A stretch of DNA of 64,000 nucleotides from an uncultured Spirochaetota bacterium (GTDB lineage: Bacteria > Spirochaetota > Spirochaetia > JAFGXN01): NCBI GenBank assembly GCA_944388995.1, contig CALXKN010000001.1, positions 310,001-374,000 of the forward strand, in the 5' to 3' direction. The translations under genes and the position numbers were made by a program. Positions 14,734 through 18,727 of the stretch are shown piece by piece. Under the pieces are notes generated by a model, which made no database searches, had not been told where the DNA came from, and saw only the letters and a program-made list of their open reading frames with translations. Positions within the stretch are counted from its first letter, which is position 1. Each line of letters starts with the position of its first letter.

Positions 14734-14785
14734 GAAAATCTTTTATTTTTGACAAAATTTGACTATAATAAGAACGGACGGTCTT

Positions 14786-16147
14786 ATGGCAAAAGAAAAA
14801 ACGGTTTATATCTGTTCGGAATGCGGGCACAGGGAGGCAAAGTGGGCGGGGCGGTGCGTCGTCTGCGGCGCATGGAACACGTTTGTCGAAGAAAACATCA
14901 GAACCAAGATGAAATTTTCTTCGGATGAAAAAAAGACGGCGCCGGTTCCTCTTTCCCGCGTCTGCGGCGAGGAGAAGAACCGTATCGACTGCGGCACGGA
15001 AGAGTTTAATCGCGTTTTAGGCGGCGGGCTGACGGCAGATTCCTCCGTTCTCATCGGAGGACGCCCCGGCATCGGAAAATCGACGCTGCTTTTGCAGACA
15101 GCCGCTTCCGCGAAAACGGAGTCGGTTCTTTATGTCTCCGGCGAAGAATCGGCAGCTCAAATCAAGGCGCGCGCCGTCCGTCTCGGTCTCAGCGAAGAGA
15201 GAATTACGCTTCTCATCGAAAACGATTTGGAAGCGATAACAGCGGCCGTCCGTTCGCTCAAACCGCAATTGGTGATCATTGATTCGATTCAGACCGTCAT
15301 CTGCCGCGAAGCCGGTTCGATTCCGGGAACAGTGAATCAAATGAAATTTTCAGCATACGAACTGATTTCCGTCTGCAAGGAAATCGGCGCTGCGCTTTTT
15401 TTAACGGCCCATGTGACGAAAGACGGCGTAATTGCCGGACCGAAACTTTTGGAACATTTGGTCGATACGGTCCTTTATTTCGAAGACGGGAACGACGATT
15501 TGCGAATTTTGCGCGCCGAAAAAAATCGTTTCGGCGCGGTTGACGAATCGGGATTTTTTATAATGACCGCAAAAGGATTGCTTGAAGTGAAAAATCCGTC
15601 GGCCCTGTTTACCGTCGAACGCGAAGGCGCCGTTCCGGCCGGAATCGCCCGCGCCATGATCATGGAAGGCTCGCGGATGCTTCCCGTCGAAATTCAGGCG
15701 CTGGTCACCCCGGCGCAAAGCTCTTTAAGCCGCGTTTTTTCCGATAAAATCGACGGAAAACGGATTTCCCGCATCGCCGCGGTGATTGAAAAGCAGATCG
15801 GCGTTAAATTTTCAGACCGCGATTTGTACATCAATGTCGCCGGCGGTATGCGACTAAACGATCCGGCCGCCGATTTGGCGGTCGCAATGGCTCTTTATTC
15901 GTCCCGCTGTGATTTGCCGATTCCGCAATCGGTGATTTTTGCCGGCGAACTGAGTCTGGCCGGGGAAATCCGTCCGATCCGCTTTGCCGACAAACGCGCG
16001 CGCTCGGCGGCGCAGGCCGGCTACAGCCTCATTATTCTGCCGCCGCCGGGCGAAAAAGGCGGCAGTTGGGGGCAGGGGGCGGCGGCCGCCGCGGATATAG
16101 GCGGCTGTATCCGTTTGATTTTTTCTTCCGACGGACAACAAAAATGA
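14786..16147 (+). CDS. radA: DNA repair protein RadA
   Basis: A 453-residue RecA-related ATPase that promotes branch migration during recombination repair. The N-terminal zinc finger shows CSECGHREAKWAGRCVVCGAW as two CxxC pairs. Walker A is GRPGIGKST, the RadA-specific KNRFG motif is present (EKNRFGAV), and the Lon-like C-terminal domain ends the protein. ATG 14786 gives the family N-terminus MAKEKTVYICSECG. A TATAAT at 14764-14769 lies upstream and allows only a short leader. The stop overlaps the uvrC start as ATGA, giving a radA-uvrC repair operon. Confidence 0.96.
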   Translation: MAKEKTVYICSECGHREAKWAGRCVVCGAWNTFVEENIRTKMKFSSDEKKTAPVPLSRVCGEEKNRIDCGTEEFNRVLGGGLTADSSVLIGGRPGIGKSTLLLQTAASAKTESVLYVSGEESAAQIKARAVRLGLSEERITLLIENDLEAITAAVRSLKPQLVIIDSIQTVICREAGSIPGTVNQMKFSAYELISVCKEIGAALFLTAHVTKDGVIAGPKLLEHLVDTVLYFEDGNDDLRILRAEKNRFGAVDESGFFIMTAKGLLEVKNPSALFTVEREGAVPAGIARAMIMEGSRMLPVEIQALVTPAQSSLSRVFSDKIDGKRISRIAAVIEKQIGVKFSDRDLYINVAGGMRLNDPAADLAVAMALYSSRCDLPIPQSVIFAGELSLAGEIRPIRFADKRARSAAQAGYSLIILPPPGEKGGSWGQGAAAAADIGGCIRLIFSSDGQQK

Positions 16148-17757
16148 CATCACCGAAAGAAACCGTTCGTTCTTTTCCCCACTGTCCCGGCGTCTATTTG
16201 ATGAAAAACAAAGACGACGCCGTGATTTACGTCGGGAAAGCAAAAGATTTAAAAAAACGGGTTTCTTCATACTTTTTATCCGGAAGGGACGTTAAAACAT
16301 CGGCCCTGGTCAAGCACATTGCAGCTATCGACTTTATCGTTACGATTTCTGAAGGCGACGCGCTTCTTCTTGAAAATAACCTGATCAAGAAGTATCAACC
16401 GAAGTACAATATTTCACTTAAGGATGGCAAATCCTACCCGCTGCTGCGAATTACCAACGAACCGTTTCCGAAAATTTTTAAAACCCGCAACCGTATTGAA
16501 GACGGTTCGCTGTATTTCGGTCCGTACCCGGCCGCCGGTTTGGTCGATATTTACCTCGATATGGTGAAAGAACTGTTTCCGCTGCGCCGCTGCTCGGGAA
16601 AATTGAAAAAACGGGATTATCCGTGTCTGTATGCGCATATCGGTTTGTGCAAAGCTCCGTGCGTCGGCAATGTGACGCAGAAAGAGTACGGAGAGTGGAT
16701 CAATCGCATCAAGGAAATTTTGATCGGCGACGCCCAATCCATCGATGCTTTTTTGAAAGACAAAATGGAAACCGCTTCGCGCGAATGGAATTTCGAAGCG
16801 GCCGCCCGTTACCGCAACTTTTTGACCGCCATCGCCGCCGTCACCGAAAACCGCGAAGTGATGGACTACGATCCGACCTCGCGCGATTACTTCGCCCGGG
16901 AGACGGAAGGAGATCTGACCGTTTACTGTATTCTTCAAATCCGCGACGGAAAACTTTCCGGAAAAGATCTTTTCCGATTCCGTAATGTTGTTGATGAACA
17001 CGAAGCGTTGGGGCAATTTTTTCTTCAATATTATGCTGAAACACGGTTGCCGCCGGCGGAAATTTATGTCGAATACGGAGAACCGACGGATGCGATAGAA
17101 AAGGCTCTCGAAGAAAAATGCGGCTGCCGAACGCGGATGAAAACTCCTTCGACCGACCGCGACCGCCGTTTGATGAAACTGGCGCATCAAAACTGCGCTG
17201 TTGATTTGGATCGCCAACGGACAGAAAAGGCGCCGGCCGAAGGGTTGGAGGCGCTTGCACGGATTTTCAGCCTGCCGAAGCTGCCGCAGCGGATTGAAGG
17301 GTTCGACATCGCGCATCTCCACGGAAAGTACACGACGGCGTCGCTGGTTTCGTTTTGGAACGGCCGCCCCGACAAGAAAAATTACCGTCACTTCAACATT
17401 AAAACTTTAAGCGGAAAAATCGACGACTTTGAATCGATGAGAGAGGCAACCGCCCGCCGTTACATGAAACTGGTCAACGAAGGTCTGCCTCTGCCGGATA
17501 TGATTTTAATCGACGGCGGATTGGGTCAAATCAATGCGGTATATGAAATTCTGCAAGCATTGGGAATTGAAGAAAAAATCACGCTTTTAAGCCTCGCAAA
17601 GCGGGATGAAGAAATTTACCGACCTCACTGCTCGCGACCGATTTCCCTGCCGAAAGGCGATCTGGCACTGCGTATTCTGCAAAACGTCCGCGATGAAGCC
17701 CATCGCTTCGCCACATCGTTTAATCAAGAACTGCGGAGGAAGGGAACAGGTCTGTAA
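16144..17757 (+). CDS. uvrC: Excinuclease ABC subunit C lacking the C-terminal HhH domain
   Basis: The nuclease subunit of nucleotide excision repair, which cuts on both sides of a lesion with UvrB. The GIY-YIG domain is at residues 14-90 (GVYLMKN ... VIYVGKAKDLKKRVSSYF). A UVR region is near 200-240. The RNase H-like domain shows GFDIAHLHGK and ILIDGGLGQINA. At 537 residues it is shorter than typical UvrC (about 600). It stops right after ATSFNQELRRK, where the helix-hairpin-helix pair normally begins. Its last 38 bases overlap the convergent holA gene. Start ATG 16144 overlaps the radA stop. It may still make the 3' cut; the 5' incision normally needs HhH-assisted DNA binding. Confidence 0.93.
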   Translation: MTSPKETVRSFPHCPGVYLMKNKDDAVIYVGKAKDLKKRVSSYFLSGRDVKTSALVKHIAAIDFIVTISEGDALLLENNLIKKYQPKYNISLKDGKSYPLLRITNEPFPKIFKTRNRIEDGSLYFGPYPAAGLVDIYLDMVKELFPLRRCSGKLKKRDYPCLYAHIGLCKAPCVGNVTQKEYGEWINRIKEILIGDAQSIDAFLKDKMETASREWNFEAAARYRNFLTAIAAVTENREVMDYDPTSRDYFARETEGDLTVYCILQIRDGKLSGKDLFRFRNVVDEHEALGQFFLQYYAETRLPPAEIYVEYGEPTDAIEKALEEKCGCRTRMKTPSTDRDRRLMKLAHQNCAVDLDRQRTEKAPAEGLEALARIFSLPKLPQRIEGFDIAHLHGKYTTASLVSFWNGRPDKKNYRHFNIKTLSGKIDDFESMREATARRYMKLVNEGLPLPDMILIDGGLGQINAVYEILQALGIEEKITLLSLAKRDEEIYRPHCSRPISLPKGDLALRILQNVRDEAHRFATSFNQELRRKGTGL

Positions 17758-18727
17758 CCGCGCCCTTTTCGACCGTCAGCCGGTAAACCAGAAGATCGGC
17801 GATCACCTCATCGGAGAAGGAAACGCCTTGTTTCAGCAGCGCGTCGGTTCGGTTTAAAAGCAGCAGTATGTTCTCCAGCGCCGCCGCGTCGAACACGGAA
17901 AGCGCCTGCCCGTAAAGCCTGCGGTTGCGTTTTCCTCGAATATTCTCGGCGTCAAACGCGTCTTCGAGCGGACCGTTTCCGCCCGAGACAAAAACGCAGA
18001 TTCTCATCAACCGGCGAAACTGCCACGCCAAACCGGCCGCCATTGAAATCAAATTCGATTCTCCGGAATAAAGAATTTTCCGCACCGCCTCGACAGCCGA
18101 TTCAAATCGTCCGTTCACAATTTTTTCAAAAAGTGTAAAGACGTTTTCTTCTTTACTGTGGTAAAGATAATTCTCCCAATCGGAAGCCGTGATTTCACCG
18201 CTCCCTTTAAAATCCGCCAAACGGGAACAAACGGCTCTCAACTCCTCGGTATCATTGGTTACCGTATCGAGCAGCTCGGAAACAGCCTCCGGAGTGATTT
18301 TAATCTTCCTCTCCAAAAAAAACGAAAAAACCCACGATTGTTTATCCGACTCGAACAACTCCCAAAAAACAACCGTATGCTCTTTGTCGAAAACGGATAC
18401 TGCGGTTTTATCAAGTTTAGCCGCGGAAGTTTCATCACTGCAAAAAAACAGCAGCGTTAAATCCGACAGATTTTTAAACAAGGCGGCCGCTTCTTTAGCA
18501 GGCTTTCCTTTAAGCCGCTCCGCATTGGAAACAATCAGAATTTGAAGGTCACCGAACAGAGAAGGATTCGACAGAGCGCCGAAAAAGGCTTCCGTGTCGT
18601 CCGAATCGAGGTAAAAGCGATAAGTCTGAAAAGATCGTCCCGATTTTTTAATGAAGGCGTCGGCGGTCTTTTCAATAAACTCTTTCTTCTTGCCGTGTTC
18701 ACTTCCGAGCAAAAGATATGCCGGCAT
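17720..18727 (-). CDS. holA: DNA polymerase III delta subunit
   Basis: A 335-residue clamp-loader subunit that opens the beta sliding clamp. The N-terminal AAA-like region with LLGSEHGKKKEF, the SNPSLFGDLQILIVSNAERL clamp-contact segment and the helical C-terminal collar domain fit HolA. ATG 18727 has GGGGAG 4-5 bases upstream. The gene is convergent with uvrC and the two 3' ends overlap, so no terminator lies between. It appears to be transcribed alone. Confidence 0.85.
   Translation of the reverse strand: MPAYLLLGSEHGKKKEFIEKTADAFIKKSGRSFQTYRFYLDSDDTEAFFGALSNPSLFGDLQILIVSNAERLKGKPAKEAAALFKNLSDLTLLFFCSDETSAAKLDKTAVSVFDKEHTVVFWELFESDKQSWVFSFFLERKIKITPEAVSELLDTVTNDTEELRAVCSRLADFKGSGEITASDWENYLYHSKEENVFTLFEKIVNGRFESAVEAVRKILYSGESNLISMAAGLAWQFRRLMRICVFVSGGNGPLEDAFDAENIRGKRNRRLYGQALSVFDAAALENILLLLNRTDALLKQGVSFSDEVIADLLVYRLTVEKGAVTDLFPSSAVLD

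Follow-up and report, generated by a model that had tools for sequence, protein, structure and literature searches.

A spirochaete UvrC without its C-terminal helix-hairpin-helix pair, shared by two species of one genus and ending within a convergent holA gene

The UvrC encoded in the stretch analysed here (64,000 nucleotides of an uncultured Spirochaetota bacterium, hereafter the window) stops directly after its RNase H endonuclease domain and has no C-terminal helix-hairpin-helix (HhH) pair. The loss is real and specific to the lineage, and similar losses are already known in other bacteria. A sister species that was assembled separately (G001, contig CALXOJ010000006.1) carries a UvrC that is 98% identical in protein, with identical tail, stop and 38-base overlap with the holA gene. 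The original prediction of a UvrC that lacks the HhH pair and runs 38 bases into a convergent holA is thus borne out by Pfam, by the gene coordinates and by the sister species. We consider it likely that a deletion in the ancestor of the genus removed the (HhH)2 domain and that the shortened protein still functions as a UvrC. The features involved are as follows.

14759..16147, forward strand: radA, its stop overlapping the uvrC start (ATGA); TIGR00416, 449.6 bits, cut-off 403.05
16144..17757, forward strand: uvrC without HhH, 537 amino acids plus stop; open reading frame, same tail in the sister species
16186..16410, forward strand: GIY-YIG nuclease domain, residues 15-89, with Tyr18, Tyr29, Tyr43 and Asn89 kept; Pfam and homologues
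16753..16830, forward strand: UVR (UvrB-binding) motif, residues 204-229; Pfam, 22.1 bits, cut-off 21.5
16882..17214, forward strand: UvrC_RNaseH (PF22920), residues 247-357; Pfam
17260..17712, forward strand: UvrC RNase H endonuclease domain (UvrC_RNaseH_dom, PF08459), residues 373-523; Pfam, fold match to 2nrt
17720..18727, reverse strand: holA, DNA polymerase III delta subunit, 335 amino acids; DNA_pol3_delta and DNA_pol3_delta_C
17720..17757, no strand: convergent uvrC/holA overlap, 38 bases; open reading frame coordinates
17743..17761, no strand: putative deletion junction, between the last residue with UvrC homology (533, at 17742) and the start of HolA homology at 17762

The uvrC frame starts with ATG at 16144, stops with TAA at 17755-17757 and ends in the residues QELRRKGTGL. 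Its product scores 519.5 bits with the NCBIfam uvrC equivalog model (TIGR00194, cut-off 285.45), the match ending at model position 536 of 574. The GIY-YIG 3′ nuclease domain and the RNase H-like 5′ nuclease domain are both present, the UVR motif passes its cut-off marginally and four cysteines (C150, C161, C169, C173) are nearly invariant. No Pfam HhH family matches the protein at E ≤ 1, so its architecture is not the orthodox one, which the available text of PMC1564403 gives as C4-UvrBb-EndoV-HhH, along with forms without EndoV and HhH. The window UvrC shares with the orthodox form described there the GIY-YIG domain, the Cys-rich region, the UvrB-binding motif and the RNase H-like 5′ nuclease, but not the HhH pair. 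Cho and Cho-like proteins, in the same text, are likewise UvrC relatives with fewer domains; they have no 5′ nuclease, whereas the window protein keeps this domain and is therefore not a Cho. Residues Y18, Y29, R39, Y43, E77 and N89 are invariant across a 32-row alignment. R39 and E77 are presumably among the GIY-YIG catalytic residues. Solved homologues of the GIY-YIG domain are 1yd6 and 1ycz, and the Thermotoga maritima mutants Y19F, Y29F, Y43F and N88A appear as titles of PDB entries; Tyr18, Tyr29, Tyr43 and Asn89 would be the equivalents of T. maritima Y19, Y29, Y43 and N88. The RNase H endonuclease domain keeps Asp388, Asp457 and His520, which probably correspond to RNase H-domain residues of the E. 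coli enzyme, whose Asp399, Asp438, Asp466 and His538 are named in the title of a reference of PMC7835731.

The relatives that keep a full HhH include G002 (locus L026), which represents the one further genus of the family in the sample, and the domain was therefore lost in the window genus. UvrC homology and HolA homology, with limits picked by eye, lie 19 bases apart in the window and 205 in G002, a spacing consistent with a deletion whose net size is about 186 bp and whose junction lies within 17743-17761. Such a deletion, in the ancestor of the genus, would have struck the convergent uvrC/holA junction, removed (HhH)2, placed the 3′ end of holA directly after the RNase H helix and replaced the last HolA residues, which are the antisense of the uvrC end. 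It had been proposed that a deletion joining the two genes explains both the loss and the overlap. The first half is supported by the full-length relatives and the closeness of the two homologies, but the second is not. Both genes were located in 42 rows, four from the window genus and 38 from outside it (two of the latter, L015 and L035, probably represent a single genome), and they are convergent in all 38 outside rows, overlapping by 4-56 bases in 29 and separated, with gaps of up to 608 bases, in nine. In G002 itself the convergent holA overlaps uvrC by 17 bases. Convergent and often overlapping uvrC and holA are widespread in spirochaetes; the deletion therefore did not create the overlap, and we reject the overlap as proof of a deletion. 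On the other side of the gene, the window genus alone among the compared loci, whose flanks span at most 1.5-3 kb, has radA immediately upstream of uvrC.

A short UvrC throughout the clade is rejected on a survey of the class. UvrC matches were found in 386 of 394 genomes; five weak ones (E 4.6e-5 to 9.6e-4) were taken, unexamined, as UvrB, and match ranges were available for 380 of the remaining 381 (G289 left out), the classes being counted by hand. In 362/380 the match extends at least to position 560 of the 592-position model. Reading of the tails leaves eight without HhH (G000, G001, G013, G083, G125, G277, G288, G297), and Pfam gave no HhH match at E ≤ 0.01 for G013, G277 and G288. Nine further matches end early and stand outside this count (G006, G104, G162, G174, G210, G234, G272, G304, G367), several of them at a contig edge, and in G181 the HhH begins and then gives way to unrelated sequence. 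Outside the class, six Marinimicrobia-type loci (L054, L055, L058, L066, L076, L079) end within a few residues of the window point after the RNase H helix; L057, L060 and L078 have HhH. The window HolA has no match in those six loci, and their loss falls separately from that of the window on the tree (from which L079 is absent).

This tree, of 84 UvrC cores, was built by a quick method and carries a warning of long-branch attraction that includes the window genus and genus g13; on it the 12 HhH-less rows need five changes, and the starred branches force five. L011 (at a contig end) and L091, L094 and L095 (diverged HhH) were taken as not HhH-less, and counting them (16 rows) also gives five. 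Left out were G297, the duplicates L002, L003, L025 and L015, and the cut, fragmentary or broken L092, L074, L077, L079, L083 and L084. HhH loss thus appears to recur in four other lineages among spirochaetes and Marinimicrobia. The losses in the window genus and in g13 (family f12) are separate, since G038 of g13 keeps HhH, with about 5 bases between uvrC and holA. In the truncated members of g13 the distance is 7.5 kb (G013) and 5.7 kb (G125), and the g13 loss thus adjoins an insertion, given the kilobases of other open reading frames in this interval:

L116, 2065-9544: open reading frames between HhH-less uvrC and holA, genus g13
L117, 1755-7500: open reading frames between HhH-less uvrC and holA, genus g13

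By eye, one of the L116 frames has ankyrin-like repeats and another is HTH-like. Three further g13 genomes (G057, G105, G116) have UvrA and UvrB (in two pieces in G105) and no UvrC match; we doubt an outright loss, as two of them have no holA match either and the other has a partial one, which makes an assembly gap likely. In family f24, whose genus we guess to be Treponema-like, L089, L090 and L108 carry unrelated tails in place of HhH, one of them Ala-rich, and the diverged HhH of L091, L094 and L095 belongs to other members of this family.

The short UvrC is, judged by codon comparison, under strong purifying selection. Between the two species of the genus its dN/dS is 0.085 (dS 0.150, dN 0.013; Nei-Gojobori, a single species pair); radA has a similar ratio (0.089) and holA a higher one (0.27). 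The RNase H domain of UvrC (residues 371-523) gives 0.06. Eighteen full-length spirochaete UvrCs share 87 invariant and 45 nearly invariant positions ahead of the HhH; the window protein keeps 83 and 39 of them, respectively. The predicted model (mean pLDDT 85.8, pTM 0.68; 59 over the last seven residues) has a long helix, 507-536, at its C-terminal end; superposition with the T. maritima UvrC structure 2nrt gives an rmsd of 1.8 over 167 columns. UvrA and UvrB are full-length in the genome, and Mfd is present (TIGR00580, 1096 bits, cut-off 800). The purifying selection, the kept residues that align with catalytic ones and the company of UvrA, UvrB and Mfd make a working UvrC most probable. UvrB would recruit the short protein through the UVR motif. 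The GIY-YIG domain would then make the cut 3′ of the lesion and the RNase H domain the 5′ cut, and contact with DNA would depend on UvrB and on the core of the short protein. Against this, four of the invariant positions carry substitutions relative to the 18 relatives (Y164A, L375F, R442K, G483S), and the selection estimate comes from one pair.

Some side observations belong to the same genes. The first 95 uvrC codons (16144-16428) show one synonymous change over 64.5 sites between the two species, compared with 50.3 over 370.5 in the whole gene, either an unexplained conservation or local recombination. A 667-amino-acid frame with a weak match to the UvrB model was considered as a UvrD-like helicase, a reading that was dropped when it proved to be PriA. 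A second UvrA-like frame, 719 amino acids long, occurs in the sister species (G001:C2:165092-167131), with no equally strong counterpart in G000 among the matches listed.

The reading that competes best is that of an enzyme narrowed to some lesions or contexts, or mainly to the 3′ cut, with repair in the genus reduced, which we regard as unlikely, although it deserves weight. According to the available text of PMC7835731, the HhH of UvrC is required for single-stranded DNA binding and 5′ incision, and the same review ties it in some contexts to 3′ incision. The HhH is reported to be needed for 5′ incision in E. coli and other models, and for UV survival in E. coli (PMC7835731 and PMC9426483, as far as their available text goes), so incision by the window protein could be impaired. 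Such narrowing would also agree with the finding of neither a second UvrC nor a Cho-type nuclease in the genome, where another GIY-YIG domain scores above cut-off only in a 94-amino-acid frame, nor of a substitute HhH protein. The selection on the RNase H domain argues against it, and so does Helicobacter. All Helicobacter UvrCs aligned in PMC9426483 have the HhH region truncated or missing, and disruption of the single remaining motif of H. pylori did not markedly raise UV sensitivity. These proteins resemble the window UvrC in having one motif or none with both nuclease sites conserved; they differ in belonging to another phylum, and the available text of PMC9426483 mentions no uvrC/holA deletion. 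That of PMC8837605 contains nothing further on the HhH. Searches of open-licence literature, one worded for Spirochaetes and none for Marinimicrobia, listed no title on HhH-less UvrC in either group.

A broader conjecture, which we also hold to be improbable though not far-fetched, is that the HhH pair of spirochaetes is dispensable and, sitting at a rearrangement-prone, convergent junction with holA, has been shed repeatedly, by deletion in the window genus and beside an insertion in g13. In the surviving enzymes, changes in UvrB or in the RNase H core would then make up for the lost grip on DNA.

It is very unlikely that uvrC itself is decaying and that the deletion marks the beginning of a loss of nucleotide excision repair in a reduced genome. 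The genome is indeed small, 1.9 Mb compared with 3.3 Mb in the family relative; however, the low dN/dS of the whole gene, the lack of any frameshift or internal stop in uvrC of either species and the full-length UvrA and UvrB speak against decay, and the members of family f20 that we examined, at 0.9-1.9 Mb, match through the HhH.

A transfer of the HhH function to a separate protein acting in trans can practically be set aside. A separate HhH protein elsewhere in the genome had been suggested as something to look for, and none was found in this 98%-complete genome with the HHH_5, HHH_2 and spirochaete HhH profiles, which a diverged HhH could escape. HHH_5 found RuvA; HHH_2 found LigA, with a score under the cut-off of that model; the spirochaete profile gave PolA (E 0.014), RuvA (0.24) and a 43-amino-acid frame (0.64).

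Equally hard to credit is a sequencing or assembly error that shifted the HhH out of frame or dropped a stretch: uvrC does end within another gene, but the separately assembled sister species has the same end, no HhH was found in the six frames of the window and no unattached HhH in the genome (1.93 Mb in 27 contigs), and we consider sequencing error ruled out by the sister species and the six-frame searches. The profile used, built from 15 spirochaete UvrC HhH tails, detected no remnant near uvrC; its best match in the window has E 1.3 (2.7 in a larger second search), at position 688. Three of the four controls of the first search scored 1.3e-20 or better, but these are rows of the profile, and the fourth, L091, gave 0.48. 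A further 19 control loci were not part of the profile: 16 gave 5.5e-12 or better, and the other three, Treponema-like with diverged HhH, scored weakly (0.0074, 0.011 and 0.97), so a badly diverged remnant could escape the profile.

The loss of the HhH pair is a modest variation on a known theme, since truncation and loss have already been published for Helicobacter. Its value lies in a natural experiment on the role of the pair, with two species without it whose UvrC is under selection and a family relative that has it. Several independent losses would make the view from model organisms, that the HhH is needed for 5′ incision, testable with naturally short enzymes.
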